DNA of 14,480 nt, taken from positions 1-14,480 of the forward strand of contig JALLAZ010000723.1 in NCBI GenBank assembly GCA_036939755.1. Reading direction: 5' to 3'. Of the stretch, positions 1 through 11,193 are shown in pieces; the stretch's first letter is position 1, and every line of letters starts with the position of its first letter. A program made the translations under genes and the position numbers. This DNA comes from Stephanodiscus triporus (taxonomy: Eukaryota; Bacillariophyta; Thalassiosirophyceae; Thalassiosirales; Thalassiosiraceae). Under the pieces are notes generated by a model that had not been told where the DNA came from, did not search any database, and was given only the letters and a program-made list of their open reading frames with translations.

Positions 1-70
1 GGGGGGGGGGTCGTCGGCGGGGGGGGGGGAGGAGGAGGAGGGCGCGGGGGGGGTGGAGGGAGGCATCGAG
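1..70. repeat. G-rich low-complexity tract at left edge
   Basis: Runs of 8 to 13 G alternate with GGA steps, so the plus strand has clear potential to form G-quadruplexes. The frame of the downstream ABC transporter stays open through this tract to the window edge, giving a Gly/Glu-rich reading. An upstream coding part therefore cannot be excluded, but the tract looks like leader or low-complexity DNA. Long G runs are also prone to sequencing error. Confidence 0.6.
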
Positions 71-3000
71 ATGGATTCGGCCTTCGTCAAGAACCTGAAC
101 GCGTTCCTCGGGACACTGGGCGACGACGCCGTCGTCGACCTGATGCTGCCGTCGATGGAGGTGCGACTACGCGACGTGTCGTACAGGGTACCGCGCCTCG
201 ACGACGGCGCGGGCAACAGGAACAGGATACACACCCTATTCAACTCGTCGCCGCTGTACACGATATCGAAGTTTGTCAAGGGACTGCGAGCGGGGGGCGG
301 CAGGGATCGACCCGAGAGTACAATACTCGTCGAGGAGGTCCTGTCGGGCATCAACCTCGTCCTGAGGCCGAGGCGGATGTACCTGATCCTCGGTCCGCCC
401 CTCTCCGGCAAGACCTCGCTCCTGAAGGCGATCGCGGGCATGCTCCCGCATGGATCGTTCAAATCCGGATCGAAGTCGGGGGGGTATTGCGAGGAGAGGT
501 ACGTCTCGGGACGGATCGCGTACAACAACCTCGTTTGTTCCGGGGAGGGTGCCGAAATATCCCATCGCACCCTTTTCCGTAACCTCGTCGCCTTCGTGAG
601 GCAGAGCGACTTTCACGCCCCCCGCCTCACCGTGGCGGAGACGTTACTGTTCTCCGGCAGCTGCAAGGACGAGGCCGTTAGGAAGAATAAGAAGGGCACG
701 TCGACGGACGGGAAGGTCGGCCTGACGTTGGAGGGGTTGGGATTGACTCACGTTCAGGACACGTACGTCGGTAACGAGAAGATTCGAGGCGTGAGCGGCG
801 GCCAGAGGAGGAGGGTTACCCTCGGAGAGATGATGGTGTTCGACACGCCGCTGCTTTGCGGCGACGAGATTTCGACGGGTGAGTGTATTTTCTCCCGTTT
901 CCCCCCCCTCTCTTGTTACGGATTTGTACGAACTGCCGAGTTTATTCAGTGCGAACGTTTGAATGCTTATTTTGGCATGTTATTTCAATCGGACAGGATT
1001 GGACACTGCGTCCACAATTGAAATCCTTAGCATACTGAGCTACGTCACCCGCGTCATGAAGCGAATTACGGTCGTATCTCTCCTCCAACCGAGTCCCGAG
1101 GCCGTATCTCTTTTCGACGAAGTCATTCTGCTCAGCGATGGTGGTCGCATCATCTTCGCTGGGCCCACAGAAATGGCGTGCGACTATTTCCGAGGCTTAG
1201 GCTACGCGCAACCTGATTCGATGGATGATGCGGACTACCTATTGGCCGTTGCCAGCTCGGACAGGAAGCGTCTGTACCGAGGAGACTCGAGCGAGAAGCC
1301 TGAATTCTTGCCCTCCTTTCATGCGGATTATTGTCGTCCCAGAATCATCAAAGACCAGCAGGAGGGATGGGAACGAGATTGGGCGGCAGCGATTAAGGAA
1401 GGCCGCCCGACCAACGACGGGATAGATCGCTTCATAAAAAAGTACCAAAATCCATTCTGGACATCCGTTCGATTGAATCTTGGGCGTTCATTCATCCTTT
1501 GGACGCGCGATAGGATCTTCATCCGTGCAAGTTTGATCAAGAACATCGCGATGGGCCTATCTGTCGGATTCGTGTTCTTGAATACCGACATGAACTCTAG
1601 TTTCTTTGGCGTGCTGTTTCAAGGAAATTTGGTGCGACTAAGGAGGCCTTGGCCTAATGTTGTGTGTCATACATGCTATTCGCGCCATTAACCCAAACTC
1701 GGCAATCTTACACCATTTTTTCGTACTCTATGTAGTTCATCATGCTCGGCGCAATGACGTCTTCTCCCGAAAAGCTGGACGATCGTGCGATCTTTTACAA
1801 GCACGACGACCTTAATTTTTATCCCGCACTGAGTTACGTGATTGGCCAATCCTTGGCATCTATCCCACAAATGATGATCGATGTCCTACTTTTTGGAACC
1901 TTTGTATACTGGATGGTTGGCTTTGTCGCGTCAGCGAAAGGATTTCTTTTAGTGAGTTTGCGGTGATTTGTTGCGATTTGTTTTTCTTCGTTCTTCATAC
2001 ATTTTGTTAATGATGTCGCTGCTCTCTCTTTTGCATCGCTCGACCGACCAAAAGTATTTGGCGCTCTTTTTCTCGTTCACCTTCACTTGCGGCCAGATGT
2101 TTGGGCTTTTGGCATCCGTGGCACCTAGCAAATCTGCAGTTCAGGCTGGTGGCGCCGTCCTCCTGTTGTTGAATGTACTATTTTGCGGGTACATCGTCAG
2201 CCCAAGTGTGATACCAGATTACTTCATTTGGCTGTATTGGATGGCGCCCTTGGCGTGGGTTTACCGTGCATTACTTCTCAATGAATTCTTAAGCGATGAT
2301 TATGCGGATGGAATAGGGGAGGAAATTCTGGCGACAAACGGCTTCCTCTATCAAAGCAGAATAGGACTACAGCCGTTTACAAGGGACTGGATAGCATATT
2401 GCTTCGCCTATCTGTTCTCATTCCTCATTTTGTGCATGTTGGCATCGGCGGCATGTCTTCACTACCTACGCATGGAACCCAAACCAAATAGAGTACTAGG
2501 TATGCCTGGAATTGAAGAAAAGGAAGATGAAATTGAGGAGGAAAGTGGCAATGCAACCTTCATTCCGGTGACTTTGTCGTTCAAGGATTTGAGCTACGAA
2601 GTCAAGGCATCTACTGGATCGGACAAACTTCGTTTACTCAACAACGTCAGTGGAGTGTTCTCGGCAGGACGCATGTGCGCATTGTAAGTCCCTCCCCGAT
2701 CTTGATGCAGTCATTTCAGCAGAGGTAATCCTGCGCTCTTACTGCACTTTATTTCCTTCTCAACTCAGAATGGGTGAAAGTGGTGCGGGAAAGACTACGC
2801 TGTGAGTGTCAGATCAAGTGCGCGTGCAGTTTTTGATTGCGCTATCGTCAGCACTTATCGTTTAATGTGGACTCCTTGTTATCTTCTTCAGAATGGATGT
2901 CATAGCCTTAAGAAAGGGTTGTGGCAATATTCGTGGTGACGTACTATTGAACGGTTTTCCTCAAGAACCAATCAGTTTCCGAAGATGCTCGGGCTATGTT

Positions 3001-5073
3001 GAACAGTTTGGTGAGAAATGAAGAAGACTTCCGATTGTCGTTGTTTTGCTTCTCGTTATCCTCGTATATTGATCTTGTTCGCCCAATGTTAGACGTTCAA
3101 TCGGCTGAACTTACAGTGAGAGAAACAATCCTTTTTTCGGCCCAACTTCGACTCGATGCGACGAATCCTGTTTATGATAAGCCTGGAGGGCTTGATGAGC
3201 ACATTGACTCCATCATCAAAGTTCTTGAGCTGACGAAAGAAGCTGACATCTTGGTTGGAAATGAAGAAGACGGAGGATTGACATTTGAACAGAAAAAAAG
3301 GCTATCAATTGCCGTCGAGCTGGCAGCTAGTCCGTCTATTGTATTTCTTGATGAACCCACATCTGGTTTAGATGCGCGAGCTGCTATTCTTGTGATGAAA
3401 GCTCTAAGGAAGATGTGCGATACAGGACGCACTGTTGTCGCTACCATTCACCAGCCCTCCTCTGCTGTATTCGACATGTTTGATGACCTACTCCTCCTTA
3501 AGAAAGGCGGGGAGGTGGTATTCTTTGGAGATTTGGGAGCTTGCAGTTGTAACCTTGTTGCATACTTCGAGACTCTTGGTGCTACACATATTAACAAGGG
3601 AGAAAACCCTGCAACTTGGATGCTCAATGTATTAAGTGAAAAGATCATGGTCAATGGAGAAAAGGGCGAGAATGAAGCATTAGATTTTGCCAAAGCCTGG
3701 ATCGACTCATCAAATTATTTGGACCTCCGTCGACGATTAGCCGAAGCATTAGATTCGCAAGATGAAAGTTTGGAAATTAAGTATAAAACTGAATTCGCCG
3801 TCAACTGGTTCAAAAGGGACAATTTGGTGAGTTTTGCCGGACGCCATTGATGTTGCTGCATTTTTTTGTGCATTCTCATGAAATCATCAATTCATTCCCA
3901 CTGTATCGTATCGCAGATGGCACGTCGACTTGTAACAATTTATTGGAGAAGTCCTGCGTACAACTTATCACGAATGGTATGTATCTTTTGTCTATAAAGA
4001 GTTCTCCAGCAATAGTTATCCTAACTGTTTGGCATCGGCTTGTTCTCTGTAGGTGCTATCAATGATAATTGCGTTGCTGCTGGGCAGTGTTTTCATACCT
4101 ATTCGGAAAAACGACATCCTCACGGAGGCAGAGATAACTTCTATGCTTTCTACAATATTCATCTCATTCATCATTATTGGAGTACTCTCAATAACTTCTG
4201 TGCTACCAGTAATGCTTTCCATCCGAGACATGTATTACCGCCATAAAGCAGCGGGTATGCTCAATAGTAGATCAGTGGGCCGTGCACTTGCAACAGCTGA
4301 AAAGTGGTTCATCCTCCTGTCGAGCCTCCTTTTCAGCGTCATTTTTTTACCTTGCAGTGGAATATTCACTAATCCTGGTCGGACTTTGCTTGGACGGTTT
4401 ACGGAAGCCGCTATTTTTTGTGGCTTCTTTGCCTTCAACACAGCAATTTACTCGTATAGTGGTACGTTGTTTTGTTCGTTACAATTCCTTTTCGGTTTAC
4501 AATTCTATCTCAACTTAACTGTGTCCGTTTGCTCCGTTTTCTCAATTCCTAAGGCCAACTTTTCATGTGCTTGGTCAGGGGGCCTGGGACAGCCCAAATC
4601 TTAGCGAGCTGCTTCATCGGAATCAACAATTTCTTCTCTGGCTTAATTGTACGTCCGCAACAAATGAGTAAGTTAATGAAATTATTTCTATTTCAGCGTC
4701 ATTTGTCGTTGAAGTTTCTCACACCACCTAACATTGCTTTGTACTTAATGTAGCTGGATTTTGGCAAATCACATATTGGATTAACCCTGGCCATTTTGTT
4801 TACGAAGGCTTGTGCATGTCCATGTTTAGATCAGATCGTAGATTCGTTGTCGTGGGCGAAGGGTCCGATTACTATCTCCCACTCGACTGTAATAGCAATT
4901 TAATTGATGGTGTTTGTGAAGTGAGTGTACCCACATATGTGAACGCCTTCTTTGGTGGCTTGTTTAGTGAAAGCCATCTTACTAGGAATGCCTGCATTTT
5001 GGGCGGAATTCTGGCCGTGGTTCGTATATTAACGTTTGTGGCGTTAAGATTCTTCACTTATTCTGGGAAATGA
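71..5073 (+). CDS. Full-size PDR/ABCG-type ABC transporter, 11 exons
   Basis: ATP-driven membrane exporter of the pleiotropic drug resistance type, probably in the plasma or an internal membrane; substrate unknown. My exon model is 71-878, 997-1631, 1736-1951, 2055-2683, 2769-2801, 2892-3010, 3093-3826, 3917-3976, 4053-4461, 4554-4667 and 4754-5073. All ten introns are GT-AG, 76 to 118 bp, and keep frame, giving about 1358 aa, normal for the family. The order is NBD1, TMD1, NBD2, TMD2. NBD1 has Walker A GPPLSGKTS (about 108-116), signature VSGGQ (241-245) and Walker B with D265-E266; its switch position is Gln (LLQPS). NBD2 has Walker A GESGAGKT (765-772), a degenerate signature LTFEQ (876-880), D900-E901 and switch His933. 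This asymmetry is usual in PDR pumps. Each TMD shows about six hydrophobic segments, and TMD2 carries the ABCG-like YYRHKAAGM. The first ATG is at 71; the frame is open further left. The 5' exon is far more GC-rich than the 3' exons. Confidence 0.92.
2769..2801 (+). other. 33-nt micro-exon encoding the NBD2 Walker A loop
   Basis: Exon 5 of the ABC transporter is only 33 nt. It is flanked by introns of 85 bp (2684-2768) and 90 bp (2802-2891), both GT-AG. It encodes ten whole codons, MGESGAGKTT, plus one base and two bases of the split leucine codons on each side. The P-loop of the second ATPase thus sits alone in one exon. Skipping it would keep the reading frame (33 is a multiple of 3) but remove the ATP-binding loop. 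Confidence 0.85.
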
Positions 5074-5336: not shown

Positions 5337-8300
5337 TTATAAGTCCTCGGGGGGTTCTTCGGCGGACAGGACGTTCTTCGTAACATCATTGAAGTGCGAA
5401 CTAGCAGAGGACAACGACACGGACCTTCCCACAAGTGCCTCGACAGCACTGACCAAAGCCGAAGCGTCAAATCCGTACTCTTGCATGAGATAACTGCAGC
5501 TAGCGCCATGGGCATAGACCCCGGGTATGCCCAGACGCATCAGCCTCCTTCCAACACCATGCCCAGCAAGAACCTCGGCCGCGGCCGATCCAATGCCTCC
5601 AATAATGTTATGGTTCTCCATGACAATGATCCCGTACTTGGTCTTCCTGGCTGCCTTGACAATGGTGTCTGCTGGGAAAGGCACCAAAGTTGACAGATGA
5701 ACATGATGGATCGATACGCCCATTTTGGTAGTAGCCTTGAGCGCCTCCTCAGTGCAGATACCGCTGGTCACAAGTGCCACGTCGCTTCCGTCCGACAAGA
5801 GACGTGGCACGCCAAATTGCATGGGGGACGTCTTAGGAAAGAGTCGTGGTACCTGGCCCCTCCACATGCGAACATAAACAGGACCATCGATGGATTCGGC
5901 CACGTCCAGCACAGATTCCACTTCAGTCGCATCGCCGACTTCCAAAATGCGCATGTTGGGAATTGCCCTCATGAGTGCAACATCATCAATGGCCTGATGG
6001 GTGACGCCGCCGGGCGTTGTCAAGCCTGGCAAGAATCCCAGCAGCCTCACTGGTAAATTCGGCACCGCAATCGACATGGCGACCTGATCGAACGGCCGTC
6101 GGGTGACAAACACCGCAAAGGTATGGATGTAGGGATGATAGCCTTCCCTCGCCAAGCCTCCGGCAAAACTCATCATGTTCTGCTCAGCCATGCCAAGGGA
6201 CATGTACTGGCTGGGAAGCTCGTCGCGCAGCAGATCCGCTTCGCAGGAGGACGTCAGGTCTGCCGTCAGGACGATGGCCTGAGGGTGGAGCCTGGCCCAC
6301 TGCACAAGCTGTCTACGGTGGGGCATCGACACCATCTCAGTGCCCCTGCAGTCGCAAGCCGTAACTGCCGCCTCCGGTTCGTCCATACCCACACTGGCCT
6401 TCTTTTTGGCGGGTCCTGACAGTTCCATCATATCCATTCTGCGTTTCGGGGGGACAGCTCCTTCTTCTGTTAAGACCTCCGCCTTCTTCTCTTCCTCAAT
6501 CACGAGTTCTGGAGTCCCTTGGTAATGATGGTCATCTTCCATTCCAATTGTCATTTGGGCCAGAACCTCTGCCCAGACCTTCTTCTCATTGTCATCTTTG
6601 AACCGAACGTAATGCAGTTTAGGATGCTTCTTCAGCAACGGCAGCCCATGGCATGGATCCGTGTAGCATAGTACGACTGTGGGCAGTGATGTGTCGCGAC
6701 CGTGGGAGGTTCCATTGACGGCGGCTTCGATGGCTGCAACATTGTGTCCATCAACTTCCCTAACGATTGCACCAAATGAAGATATTTTTTGAGCCAAATT
6801 TCCAGCTTTGGTATCGTCTGGCATTTTGCCATCGCATTGCTGCCCGTTGACATCGACGACAGCAACGAGGTTTCCAATCCTGTGAAAGACGGCCGCCGCA
6901 ATTGCCTCCCAGGTCTGACCTTCCTGGAACTCGCCATCCGACATGTACACGACGACCCGTCCTGTGTGTCCTTTCAGATTCCTTGCGTGGGCAATGCCGG
7001 CAGCCTGGCTCAGTGCCTGTGCAAGGCTTCCTGCCGTGACGGCTGCATTGACGTCAGAACGACCAAAACGATACATGGTGGGTTTCAGTGGCGCCAAGAT
7101 TCTGGGAACGATTATCGAATCCCAAGCAAACAAAAACGTACCGTGTCCAGGAGAATGTTCTGCACCAATCAGCTCCACGGTGCTTCCGTCTTTGTTGTAG
7201 CTACGGAATGCAGCAATATCCAGTCGGCCGAGTTCGACAAGCAGCGAGTAGAGAACCAGTGCATAGTGAACGGGTGAAAAGATGAGACGATCCAAGTGAG
7301 GATCATTGAAGTCGCCGTTGTGTCCTTCTCCTGTAATCGTTGGTATGCCTGGCCCCGGAGAGCCTCGGAACGGACCAGGGACGCCAGACACAATGCTCGG
7401 TCCCAAATTAAGTGCACGAAGATACAGCGTGGCGAGGGTCTCGGCCGATGAGCAGGCTTGGCTCAAGTATCCACCATTGTTTTTAAGGGTGTACTGCAAA
7501 ACGCGACGTCGCACGGCTAGGGCGGTTCTCTCGACGTCTCGAATGGAAGGACGGGCGTCCCTGGCTGGAAGCTTTTCTGGGAATGGGGCCACGGCGCCAA
7601 TCGTATCATCTCCAAGAGCGGCGTACGGTTTGTCTCTACCAGCACAATGTGCGAACAGTTTGGCATCGAATTCCAGATCAGGACCCTGTTCTAGGAGAGA
7701 GCCACCAATAAGAAGAAGAAGATCTTCTCCGAACGTTCGGCGCATGTCATCGACTCTATCTAGTTTCATACCTCCTGCGGGGGATGGAAAGACGGGCTCA
7801 AACCGTCCCATGGGTCGACGGCATGCGTCGGCGACGGCTTCGCATTCCGCACGTGAAAACTGAAATCGGCCCGATGAGTTGGGAAAGATGACAGCGTCTC
7901 CTCCGCATAATCTTGGTAGAACCCCGAACAAGAACTCGTGAGAGAGTCCACGTGGGTGATGATGGACGCCATTCCCCCCCCCGGCGGGATCGATGTCACC
8001 GGTGCCATCGTCGTCGGTATGCAGCCATCCACCCAACATTGCCGGGTGAACAAGAATAGGCAGCCGGAAGCTCGGATCCGCGGCCAGTTCTCGAACCACA
8101 TCCCATCCGACGATGCCGGGAAGAACCATGACAGCTCCGGCGCCAACCTCCTTGGCGTATCGAGCACGTTGTAAAATCTTCCCCGCGGGCGAATTCAAAC
8201 ACGGGGCGTACAGGCATTTCTTGTTGGTTTCCGCATTCGCTCTCTGGACTGCCTGGGCGCAAAGCCTGACCCGTTCTTCGAACGGCGCCCATACCTGATT

Positions 8301-8858
8301 CGCCAGTCCGTGGTCGTCCTTGATAATGTCCATCCCTCCCCTGGCGAGCGCGTACGCCATGTCGGCGAATTCCCGCGCCGACTTGCCCATGGGTTTTAGG
8401 GCGGTGCATAACAGAGGTGCTTGGGGGACGCCCACCAAGTCTCGCAGGCCCTGAATACCAAACTTTGGACCGGGAAACATCGTAGTATCGTCCGTCAAGT
8501 GATGGCTGAGCGTCACCATCGCCACCGAAACGCCCTTCTTGAGCGACGTGTTCCCGAACACAACGTTCAAGAATTGCGTAAGTTCGCCTCCCGCGGTATC
8601 GTTGGGAAACCCGGCCGTCACGCGATAGGTCCCCCTCGAGAGCTCCTTGATGGATTCTACCGTCCCGACGGTGTACTCCTCGACTTGCTTGACGGCATCG
8701 ACCTGACCCGGAAGCTCGACGGTTTGTTCCAAACACAGTTCTCTCGCCAGTTTGCGAGCGTGGGCCAAGGAATCGGCCTCCATCACGTAGTCTACCCAGA
8801 ACCTTTCGGGATGGGGAGACGTGCAGCTCTTGTTTGATGAGAGACTTGGGTTACTCAT
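5337..8858 (-). CDS. RuBisCO-like protein (form IV) fused to transketolase
   Basis: One uninterrupted 1173-aa frame with ATG at 8858. Residues about 15-408 are a RuBisCO large-subunit-like fold: LKPMG (K155, matching K175 of spinach RuBisCO), IKDDHGL (K180 and D182 match K201 and D203; H183 replaces E204), VHPAM (H271 matches H294, but P272 replaces R295), FPNSSGRF at the loop-6 position without the catalytic Lys334, then SPAGGM and LIGGSLL at the phosphate-binding strands. This is a form IV protein, not a CO2-fixing enzyme. After a short linker, residues about 439-770 are the transketolase TPP domain: SPVHYAL (H531), AGSLAQAL, SDGEFQEG (D641) and DVNGQ (N671), with G-to-S in GDG. A charged linker (about 772-838) leads to the pyrimidine domain: GMAEQNM with presumed catalytic E892, HTFAVF, GVTHQ (H954), then the C-terminal domain (NHNIIGGIG). 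No signal or transit peptide and no SKL tail is seen, so probably cytosolic. No introns, unlike its neighbours. The architecture suggests two consecutive sugar-phosphate steps; the substrate is unknown. Confidence 0.93.
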   Translation of the reverse strand: MSNPSLSSNKSCTSPHPERFWVDYVMEADSLAHARKLARELCLEQTVELPGQVDAVKQVEEYTVGTVESIKELSRGTYRVTAGFPNDTAGGELTQFLNVVFGNTSLKKGVSVAMVTLSHHLTDDTTMFPGPKFGIQGLRDLVGVPQAPLLCTALKPMGKSAREFADMAYALARGGMDIIKDDHGLANQVWAPFEERVRLCAQAVQRANAETNKKCLYAPCLNSPAGKILQRARYAKEVGAGAVMVLPGIVGWDVVRELAADPSFRLPILVHPAMLGGWLHTDDDGTGDIDPAGGGNGVHHHPRGLSHEFLFGVLPRLCGGDAVIFPNSSGRFQFSRAECEAVADACRRPMGRFEPVFPSPAGGMKLDRVDDMRRTFGEDLLLLIGGSLLEQGPDLEFDAKLFAHCAGRDKPYAALGDDTIGAVAPFPEKLPARDARPSIRDVERTALAVRRRVLQYTLKNNGGYLSQACSSAETLATLYLRALNLGPSIVSGVPGPFRGSPGPGIPTITGEGHNGDFNDPHLDRLIFSPVHYALVLYSLLVELGRLDIAAFRSYNKDGSTVELIGAEHSPGHGTFLFAWDSIIVPRILAPLKPTMYRFGRSDVNAAVTAGSLAQALSQAAGIAHARNLKGHTGRVVVYMSDGEFQEGQTWEAIAAAVFHRIGNLVAVVDVNGQQCDGKMPDDTKAGNLAQKISSFGAIVREVDGHNVAAIEAAVNGTSHGRDTSLPTVVLCYTDPCHGLPLLKKHPKLHYVRFKDDNEKKVWAEVLAQMTIGMEDDHHYQGTPELVIEEEKKAEVLTEEGAVPPKRRMDMMELSGPAKKKASVGMDEPEAAVTACDCRGTEMVSMPHRRQLVQWARLHPQAIVLTADLTSSCEADLLRDELPSQYMSLGMAEQNMMSFAGGLAREGYHPYIHTFAVFVTRRPFDQVAMSIAVPNLPVRLLGFLPGLTTPGGVTHQAIDDVALMRAIPNMRILEVGDATEVESVLDVAESIDGPVYVRMWRGQVPRLFPKTSPMQFGVPRLLSDGSDVALVTSGICTEEALKATTKMGVSIHHVHLSTLVPFPADTIVKAARKTKYGIIVMENHNIIGGIGSAAAEVLAGHGVGRRLMRLGIPGVYAHGASCSYLMQEYGFDASALVSAVEALVGRSVSLSSASSHFNDVTKNVLSAEEPPEDL
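6345..6545 (-). other. Charged low-complexity linker inside the transketolase part
   Basis: Codons about 772-838 of the fusion protein, between the TPP-binding and pyrimidine-binding domains, are rich in Glu, Asp and Lys and contain a basic patch PPKRR and a PAKKK patch. It falls where many bacterial transketolases are split into two subunits, so it may be the scar of an older fusion of two subunit genes. The basic patches could act as a nuclear signal, but that is speculative. Confidence 0.6.
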
Positions 8859-9220: not shown

Positions 9221-11193
9221 ATGTCCGCCGTCCAAACGACGGCGTCGTCCGCCGCGCCGGATACCGAATATTTCTGGCACCTCGCGAGGGCGTCCCTCCT
9301 CGCCGCGGTCGCGACAGCGTTCCTGATCTTCCATCAGGCTCGGCACTCGTTCCACGAGGTCCGCGAGGCCTTCGTGGCCCATATGCGACGGACGAATCGC
9401 GACGGGGCCGTCGTCGTCGCCGCCGCCGCCGCCTCGGCCGCGAAGAAGAAGAACGCCAAGAGCACCAAGAGGAGGAATTCGAAGGACGATAGCGGCGGCG
9501 GCGACGACGACGACGTCGGGATGTTCGTCGTCGGATTCTTCCACCCTCGCTGCTCCTCGGGTGGCGGGGGGGAGAGGGTGCTATGGAAGTCCATCCAGGC
9601 CCTCGGCGAGCTGAGGGAGGGGAAGTTGGCGACGAAACGACGACGAGGGGCCAGGATGACTGCGACGAGTCCTCCTTCCTCCTACTCGAGCGACGTCCTC
9701 GCGAATTGCAAGAACCTGTGCGTGGTGGTGTACACCATCGACGAGCCGTCGGACGATTACGACAGGAGGACGATGGACGACGTTCGGACGCGATTTTCCA
9801 TCGTCTTGCCCTCGTCCCTGCCCGTGCACTTCGTCCACCTTCACGAACTGAAACACTTCCTGGGTGAGTATATTTATTATTGCGACCTCTTTCGTGCGTT
9901 TCCTCACGCCGAAGGAACCGATGCGCCGCGCCTCGCCTCGCCTCGCCTCGCCCCCCCCCGACGCCACGTGTTTTTTTTTCATCGCATTCGTTCCTCTCGC
10001 GTCCTCCGGCCCGGAATCCAGACGAGCCGAAACGCCTGACGTTGATCGCGGAGTCGTGGGGGACCGCGAGGCTGGCGTATCACGCCCTCGGCGCGGTCAA
10101 TCCGCACGCGTACGTCGACACGACGGGATGCGCCTTCACGTTCCTCGTCGCGAGGGTCCTGGCGGGGTGCAGGGTCGGGACCTATGTCCACTATCCGACG
10201 ATCAGCGCGGACATGCTCTCCCTCGTGCGGGAGCGACGGCCGTCGTACAACAACGGGGCGGAGATCGCGTCGGATCCGATGGCGTCTCGACTGAAGTTGG
10301 CGTACTACGCCGCGTTCGCCGTCTGCTACGGCCTCGTCGGCGGCCTGGCCGACCTGGTCATGGTGAATTCGAATTGGACGAGGGGGCACATCGAACGCCT
10401 GTGGAAGTTGGCGGGGAAGATACGCGTCGTGTTCCCCCCGGTCGACACGAGGAGCGTCCGGGACTTCCCGATTACGGGTCGGGAAAGAATGATTATTTCC
10501 ATCGGGCAATTCCGACCCGAGAAGGACCACGCCCTGCAATTGAGATCCTTCGCCAAACTCCTCGAAATTCATGATGGGGCCATGAGGGAGGTCGGCGTCA
10601 CGCTCGTATTGATCGGAAGCTGCAGGGGAGCGAACGATCGACGGAGAGTTGACGAGCTGCGGGAGCTCGCGAGGGAATTGCAGGTGGAGGATCGCGTGAA
10701 ATTCGTGTTAAATCAGCCATACTCTGTGGTGAGGGATTACCTACGCAGGGCGAGCGTGGGCATACACACAATGTGGAACGAGCATTTCGGCATCGGCGTC
10801 GTCGAGATGATGGCCGCGGGCCTGGTCACTGTCGCGCACGATTCCGGTGGACCTAAATCAGACATCATCCTCCGACCGTGGGATTTTGAGAACGACCACT
10901 CGCAGACATTGTCGGGCGGCGATATGCCGACAGGATGCTTGGCGAGCACCATGGACGAATACGCCGCGATGATGTACGAAATTTTCAAAAGGGACGGATC
11001 GTCGGATGAAGTATTGAAGGGCGTGAGAGAAGCTGGGAGGAAATCCGCGGAACGATTCTCGGACGAAGAGTTCATGGATTCCTTCAAGGAGGCGGTGCTG
11101 TCATCCTCGCTATTCGAAACCGGAGATGCCAATCTCCTCCTTCGTTTTGCAATATTCGTAGTCGTAATGGCAGTACTAGTACGTTACTTTTGA
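9221..11193 (+). CDS. ALG11: GDP-Man:Man3GlcNAc2-PP-dolichol alpha-1,2-mannosyltransferase
   Basis: Adds the fourth and fifth mannose to the dolichol-linked N-glycan precursor on the cytosolic face of the ER. Exons are 9221-9863 and 10022-11193, with a 158-bp GT-AG intron splitting an Asp codon; the product is 604 aa, somewhat longer than yeast or human ALG11 as I recall them. Seen in the sequence: an N-terminal membrane anchor (about 23-38); the ALG11 hallmark FFHPRC (106-111) followed by GGGGERVLW (114-122); the GT4 family nucleotide-sugar region IGQFRPEKD (375-383); and the E-x7-E motif with E468 and E476 in EHFGIGVVE. The protein ends in a hydrophobic stretch and RYF. Extra length comes from an Ala/Lys/Asp-rich insert at about 62-98 that interrupts the N-terminal domain before the hallmark. 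The gene ends 58 bp from the stop of the convergent plastid-protein gene. The identification rests on several family motifs and is firm. Confidence 0.93.
9931..9979 (+). repeat. Microsatellite and homopolymers in the ALG11 intron
   Basis: Four copies of CCTCG (9931-9950) are followed by nine C (9951-9959) and later nine T (9971-9979). They form a long pyrimidine-rich stretch upstream of the intron acceptor at 10020-10021. This is probably both the polypyrimidine tract and a length-variable locus. Confidence 0.7.

Follow-up and report, generated by a model that had tools for sequence, protein, structure and literature searches.

Methylthioadenosine (MTA) is a by-product of polyamine synthesis. 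In Rhodopseudomonas palustris the RuBisCO-like protein (RLP) RLP1 (RPA2169) is a 5-methylthioribulose-1-phosphate (MTRu-1-P) 1,3-isomerase with 1-methylthioxylulose-5-phosphate (MTXu-5-P) as product, and the cupin RPA2170 is the enzyme following RLP1, according to PMC5893883; further background is given in PMC8914248, PMC7895386 and PMC8307300. Sequence and structure comparisons were applied to a 14,480-nucleotide stretch of DNA (the window) from the diatom Stephanodiscus triporus (contig JALLAZ010000723.1 of a draft genome of 21.65 Mb in 1324 contigs), in which one gene joins an RLP to a transketolase. The fusion is probably a bifunctional MTA salvage enzyme of centric diatoms with bacterial origin, whose two halves would use MTRu-1-P and MTXu-5-P in turn.

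The minus strand carries an open reading frame of 1173 codons (8858-5337), and the plus strand is full of stop codons over the same span. Four Pfam domains score above their cut-offs in this frame, in the order RuBisCO_large (residues 134-261, 78 bits), Transketolase_N (605-761, 52 bits), Transket_pyr (851-1003, 77 bits) and Transketolase_C (1020-1133, 55 bits) from the N- to the C-terminus. Together with the fused relatives described below, these domains bear out the preliminary description of a eukaryotic gene that fuses a form IV RLP with a full transketolase-type module. Its 1173-codon frame is indeed open; a single uninterrupted coding frame it is not. A 33-codon insert of 99 nt (GTACGT...TGCAG, phase 1) has a GC content of 46% versus 56% in the exons and no counterpart in orthologues, since 54 of 63 relatives match the flanking-motif pattern and none of these 54 carries it. 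By its features the insert is an in-frame intron, and the predicted spliced product has 1140 instead of 1173 residues.

According to precomputed annotation 21 of the 63 relatives carry both RuBisCO_large and transketolase domains, with 52-70% identity to the query. The same fusion, proposed earlier as something to look for in other diatoms, is present in four species named by source, Thalassiosira profunda (P0006), T. exigua (P0016), Cyclotella atomus (P0012) and Skeletonema marinoi (P0025), and in one MMETSP transcript translation (P0011). P0009 is CCRYP_003137-RA, a prefix that we take to stand for Cyclotella cryptica, and its MAKER line presumably denotes two exons with transcript support. 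In the tree of the RLP as well as in that of TKC (TKN and TKC being the two genes of the bacterial split transketolase) the window gene sits within the diatom fusion clade, in keeping with a source among the Thalassiosirales. Because 21 of 63 relatives share the fusion, one of them as a transcript translation, it is real and neither a product of chance nor a likely assembly join. Neither the fusion nor the bacterial cluster is described in the literature searched, which agrees with the novelty claimed at the outset; this search mostly did not cover subscription papers, and an earlier remark on an RLP-transketolase neighbourhood is possible. Six peptide patterns of the query, which reach close relatives only, gave no match in viral_contigs, so that no viral copy was seen.

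By sequence, the best solved structure for the RLP half is 3qfw (225 bits), followed by MtnW proteins with at most 128 bits. A structure model was made for the orthologue P0004 (29-row alignment, mean pLDDT 74.9, pTM 0.55), in which the linker (420-444) and a stretch at 754-789 fall below 50 pLDDT, the linker being disordered. This model fits 3qfw, titled Rubisco-like protein of R. palustris, with a TM score of 0.89 of target at 2.8 Å. As 2qyg in the same structure list is titled R. palustris rlp2, 3qfw should be RLP1. The motif K[D/E]DH is found in 55 of 56 transketolase-linked RLP rows (the exception is Vibrio L086), in 13/13 cupin-linked rows, in 13/13 diatom rows and in 3qfw, whereas two MtnW rows have KDDE at this position; KDDH versus KDDE as the group-defining residue is a criterion from the present analysis and not a published one. 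In the RLP tree, which like the motif count leaves out rows shorter than 300 aa (L004, L012), the diatom rows group with transketolase-linked, cupin-linked and 3qfw rows, apart from MtnW. The RLP half thus appears to belong to the DeepYkr-type group and, by inference from its relatives, is a predicted MTRu-1-P 1,3-isomerase. An identity as MtnW enolase was rejected, as the two NCBIfam MtnW models give 180 and 135 bits against cut-offs of 409 and 514, the motif is KDDH and not KDDE, and MtnW lies outside the clade of this half in the tree.

The reaction product of the RLP is indicated by a second partner. One relative, P0052 (757 aa), has the same RLP with 69% identity fused to a cupin, and its tail matches 3ibm (97 bits), 3kgz (66 bits) and 3jzv (66 bits), the last named Rru_A2000, which we take to be the MTXu-5-P methylsulfurylase of R. 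rubrum. P0052 lies inside the diatom RLP clade (100/100), beside the transketolase-fused P0005 (98/79). Among 385 genomes of Alphaproteobacteria the cupin occurs in 14; the RLP adjoins it in 13 with strong matches and not in the 14th, which has two weak matches. The same RLP-cupin pair is located on plasmid NZ_CP091853. A split transketolase at E <1e-60 was detected in 17 of the 385 genomes. Three of these (one being the centre genome) show the signatures AEHSPG and GFLPG, with the RLP adjoining in 3/3 and mtnA in 2/3; both signatures and the RLP are absent from the fetched stretches of the remaining 14. The signature transketolase (three genomes) and the cupin (13 genomes) do not overlap, which in a small sample is weak evidence. 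Pairing with either cupin or transketolase indicates that the RLP catalyses a first step for which two alternative second steps exist, and the substrate of the cupin tells the product of the RLP. The diatom fusion itself contains no cupin according to Pfam, and none was found in the window's genome by a search that had no positive control. In two Spirochaetes loci without RLP (L076 ~7914, L077 ~7215) a cupin resembling the P0052 tail (35-36% identity) follows TKN-TKC and occupies the usual position of the RLP.

Bacterial loci were collected by scanning GTDB genomes with sequence patterns, and the best 80 of 200 stretches encoding relatives were analysed. The RLP is present in 54 of these 80 loci; it directly follows TKC in 46, is separated from it by 375-702 bases in 4 and lies upstream in 4 (L005, L009, L011, L078). 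Up to 6 kb of flank was fetched per locus, often ended by the contig end, and searched for salvage genes (mtnA, mtnK, mtnP-type phosphorylase or MTA-type deaminase). At least one salvage gene was found in 21/54 RLP-positive but in only 1/26 RLP-negative loci, the 21 spanning at least Pseudomonadota, Actinomycetota and Chloroflexota according to record titles. The mtnA gene itself lies in the flank of 14 RLP-positive loci, while we estimate that, with one mtnA per genome of several Mb, far fewer than 1% of loci would by chance have it within 15 kb of sequence. Eleven loci were assigned to mtnP by matches to the phosphorylase query, of which four are MTAP-like and seven match better as purine nucleoside phosphorylase; as all seven also hold mtnA, the count of 21 is unchanged. 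Annotated plasmids of Rhizobium, Ensifer, Mariluticola and Pararhizobium show the order mtnK-mtnA-TKN-TKC-RLP together with a sugar ABC transporter. Ponticoccus has genes for a purine nucleoside phosphorylase, an amidohydrolase, mtnA, a molybdopterin oxidoreductase (BisC-like, below the model cut-off), TKN, TKC and RLP.

MtnA and the dioxygenase of the universal pathway were searched for in the genomes of 50 of the 80 loci, namely L076, L077 and 48 of the 54 that hold an RLP. MtnA is encoded in 48/50 carrier genomes (46/48 RLP-positive) versus 9/14 controls, and the dioxygenase exceeds its cut-off in 2/50 carriers and 2/14 controls, its rarity among carriers being mild evidence. According to this, MTRu-1-P can be made by almost every carrier tested, whereas the O2-dependent step is encoded in few of them. 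Some relatives of the transketolase without RLP (L106 and, by annotation, L126, as well as L014 and L019) have a BisC-type oxidoreductase and a xylulokinase-like FGGY kinase as neighbours. Such an arrangement would suit a sulfur-bearing xylulose that is phosphorylated and handed directly to the transketolase. Genes of BisC-type S/N-oxide reductases (L105 6752-9028, L106 5580-7892 and, by annotation only, L126 4649-6919; matches also in L014, L017, L018 and L019) adjoin the transketolase in marine and other proteobacteria, whether or not an RLP is present. These neighbours suggest sulfoxide forms of methylthio sugars as substrates.

The alignment shows that the catalytic Glu is conserved in the transketolase half, as are the SPxHYA-motif His and Ser and Arg residues on the phosphate side, and that its thiamine diphosphate (ThDP) motif reads SDGE, not GDGE. 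Compared to yeast transketolase, His30 is replaced by Tyr, the GHP of His103 by IGAEHSPG, His469 by Leu and Asp477 by Gly. All four pocket changes occur in all 18 rows aligned (five diatom and 13 RLP-linked bacterial rows). The four yeast residues contact hydroxyls of the donor or acceptor substrate. At the position assigned to Arg359, an assignment that is unsure, the window has Met and the four remaining diatom rows have Arg. With the C1-hydroxyl contact lost, the pocket would suit donors that carry SCH3 or H on C1. We rejected an identity as DXS, since the P0004 model fits human transketolase (TM 0.76-0.79 of target) better than DXS (0.47-0.50) and the NCBIfam dxs model gives 148 bits against a cut-off of 466. 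A further match within the window's genome, C36 (L002), reads as a plastid-type DXS and not as another copy of the fusion.

From its relatives, the RLP half would isomerise MTRu-1-P to MTXu-5-P. In a second step MTXu-5-P would pass to the transketolase half, where ThDP would attack C2 and the C2-C3 bond would be cleaved; gene context and pocket residues point to glyceraldehyde-3-phosphate and a methylthio-hydroxyethyl-ThDP carbanion as products. These two steps jointly make up the function that we regard as probable, and the successive use of a ketose phosphate by both halves, already suggested in the preliminary description, is a natural inference from the fusion. Chemical reasoning extends the scheme by a third step, in which β-elimination of methanethiol from the adduct, comparable to the expulsion of water by phosphoketolase, would leave acetyl-ThDP, followed by hydrolysis or phosphorolysis to acetate or acetyl phosphate. 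Taken alone, this third step is put forward tentatively. With a shade less confidence than that, we propose, as an additional way of disposing of MTA, an RLP-transketolase shunt from MTRu-1-P via MTXu-5-P to glyceraldehyde-3-phosphate, methanethiol and an acetyl unit, with a ThDP-dependent C-C/C-S lyase; this shunt would occur in several bacterial phyla and would have been captured by centric diatoms in fused form. In diatoms such a shunt perhaps handles the MTA load from silica-forming long-chain polyamines. The accessible part of PMC6302742 touches on both diatom polyamines and the cupin route; the word 'transketolase' is absent there.

Several observations weigh against a function in MTA salvage. 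Enzyme activity and step order are deduced from comparisons. The flanks of 33 of the 54 RLP-positive loci hold no salvage gene, one of the 21 positive loci (L078) is counted only by a distant amidohydrolase, and MtnA was not found in two of the 50 carrier genomes (L054, L075). In Vibrio nigripulchritudo the RLP (with KEDD, not KDDH) and the transketolase stand beside FGGY kinases and sugar transport, and mtnA is missing there. P0052 is known from a single 6-kb contig. Furthermore, the neighbourhood analysis (greedy open reading frames, 84 loci) showed a single group of enzymes that recurs besides transport, regulation and mtn genes, namely short-chain dehydrogenases clustered together from 16 loci, including aldolase/dehydrogenase fusions in rhizobial-type clusters; some lineages may have a dedicated step of their own, downstream or parallel, at odds with the ordinary end products of step 3. 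Searches of the window's own draft genome gave neither a convincing MtnA (weak matches to the IF-2B domain only) nor a convincing MTA phosphorylase (only a phosphorylase-superfamily protein). The same holds for the dioxygenase, MtnC and MtnB, and the lack of this universal pathway would favour the salvage function. Both absences weigh little, because completeness of the draft genome is uncertain and introns break matches. The sole MtnA-related match is an IF-2B-domain gene (L087 1381-3019, minus strand), and the open frame upstream of it resembles, by eye, a Nudix hydrolase.

The same two steps could mainly serve 5'-deoxyadenosine salvage, leading from 5-deoxyribulose-1-phosphate through 1-deoxyxylulose-5-phosphate to glyceraldehyde-3-phosphate and an acetaldehyde-level unit. 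MtnK, MtnA and MTA-type phosphorylases or deaminases can also serve 5-deoxy sugars, as stated in PMC8102628 and PMC10986504, the clustered deaminases also score on the 5'-deoxyadenosine deaminase model (below cut-off), and the changed donor pocket suits H as well as SCH3 at C1. Nevertheless, we consider this reading unlikely, as the alternative partner is a relative of the MTXu-5-P methylsulfurylase cupin, which requires a sulfur substrate, and BisC-type reductases occur in several transketolase clusters. A true two-substrate transketolase, which would transfer the methylthio two-carbon unit of MTXu-5-P to an aldose phosphate or release methylthioacetaldehyde, in either case without elimination of methanethiol, is improbable to the same degree. 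The equivalent of yeast Asp477, which we take to contact the acceptor α-hydroxyl, is Gly throughout the family, and thiolate β-elimination from such an adduct should be chemically easy. On the other hand, transketolase fold, domain order and phosphate-side residues are kept, and methylthioacetaldehyde is a known intermediate of the dihydroxyacetone phosphate shunt (PMC5893883).

The branched-sugar route (apiose, apionate or similar) favoured by the preliminary description did not hold up and now appears very improbable. It could draw on the Vibrio locus and on OiaX, presumably an RLP, and apulose-4-phosphate transketolase, presumably a split transketolase. However, the NCBIfam OiaX model gives the RLP half 71 bits against a cut-off of 700, the nearest structure is 3qfw, and the relatives cluster with the methylthioribose genes mtnK and mtnA, phosphorylase and deaminase. 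In the annotated plasmid regions examined no gene is annotated for apiose or apionate, and the other split transketolases of the same genomes lack signature and RLP (14/14). That two adjacent genes were merged by the assembly or by a chance open frame is scarcely credible: support for the window gene itself is genomic sequence, but order and junction are the same in the 21 fused relatives, one from a transcript, and a single open frame runs through the linker.

As for the origin of the fusion, the TKC tree places the diatoms as sister to Candidatus Achromatium palustre (97/87). The Achromatium cluster has the gene order RLP-TKN-TKC, which equals the domain order of the fusion, and its RLP stop codon overlaps the start of TKN; in 50 of the 54 RLP-positive loci, unlike Achromatium, the RLP comes last. 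This sister relationship is not seen in the RLP tree; there the diatoms stand with a mixed group of Rhizobiales, Acidobacteria and others (82/79), and Achromatium takes no settled position. For this reason acquisition of a collinear bacterial cluster by diatoms is plausible, not proven.

Table 1 Features of the RLP-transketolase gene in the window
Feature	Position	Strand	Basis or remark
Whole RLP-transketolase gene	5337..8858	minus	two exons, 8858-7142 and 7042-5337; predicted spliced product of 1140 aa
RLP half, ~residues 18-415	7614..8807	minus	Pfam RuBisCO_large; 3qfw match
KDDH motif, residues 180-183	8310..8321	minus	common to 3qfw and cupin-linked RLPs; KDDE in MtnW
Variable linker between RLP half and transketolase half, ~residues 410-438	7545..7631	minus	alignment; P0004 model
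Transketolase N (ThDP-binding) module, split by the intron	6534..7538	minus	Pfam; motif alignment
AEHSPG motif, family signature replacing GHP (His103) of ordinary transketolase	7146..7163	minus	alignment
In-frame 99-bp spliceosomal-type intron (predicted)	7043..7141	minus	alignment to orthologues; composition
Transketolase pyrimidine-binding domain with GMAEQ catalytic glutamate and GFLPG..TPGG..HQ signature	5850..6308	minus	Pfam; motif alignment
Transketolase C-terminal domain	5460..5801	minus	Pfam

The predicted intron is stop-free, has a length that is a multiple of three and is placed directly after AEHSPGH in the substrate-side loop; an intron-retained form would keep the frame and add 33 residues to this loop. 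The C-terminal -EDL (window 5340-5348) is common to the window protein and 26 of the 32 first-listed relatives and may represent a conserved tail; bacterial chains end with -EAL (L005, P0032, P0037) or -ESL (L078). The gene is flanked on the plus strand by an intron-broken ABC transporter gene with ABC2 membrane domains (~2-4600) and by an ALG11 mannosyltransferase gene split into two or more pieces (9221-11193), and no functional link was seen between the fusion and these two neighbours.

If the proposed salvage function is true, it would provide a function for a widespread bacterial cluster whose proteins have no annotation beyond 'RuBisCO large subunit C-terminal-like' and 'transketolase C-terminal domain-containing'. 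MTXu-5-P would stand at a branch point where cupin and transketolase are interchangeable as the second enzyme, and a eukaryotic alga would use a bacterial sulfur-salvage pair as one polypeptide. If the complete shunt is true, diatoms would be a direct, O2-independent marine source of methanethiol. The subject bears on methanethiol from marine phytoplankton and on the recruitment of RLPs.

Among known systems, OiaX and AptA/AptB presumably likewise comprise an RLP and a split transketolase, but they are separate enzymes from different branches, with the OiaX score of the fusion far under the cut-off and another gene context. MtnW, the RLP enolase of Bacillus methionine salvage, is also a form IV RLP in methylthio-sugar metabolism; it differs by KDDE, by the sub-cut-off scores of the fusion (134-180 bits versus 409-514) and by its place outside the clade of the fusion. 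Transketolase (split-chain 6yak/6yaj; human) shares fold, domain order, ThDP and phosphate-side residues and the catalytic Glu, whereas the fusion has replaced the equivalents of His30, His103, His469 and Asp477, carries SDGE, AEHSPG and GFLPG and is joined to an RLP. Tetrahymena MtnBD (PMC3698126, PMC6302742) is likewise a eukaryotic fusion of two methionine-salvage enzymes, but these belong to the universal O2-dependent pathway and are unrelated to RLP and transketolase. The MTA-isoprenoid shunt of R. rubrum and R. palustris, with a DeepYkr RLP and a cupin-type MTXu-5-P methylsulfurylase, has an RLP of the same group (3qfw, KDDH) and probably the same first reaction, and the bacterial relatives of the fusion share its upstream MtnP/MtnK and MtnA. 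In contrast to that shunt, the second enzyme is a ThDP-dependent transketolase type and not a cupin, the predicted product is other than 1-deoxyxylulose-5-phosphate, and in diatoms both enzymes form one polypeptide.

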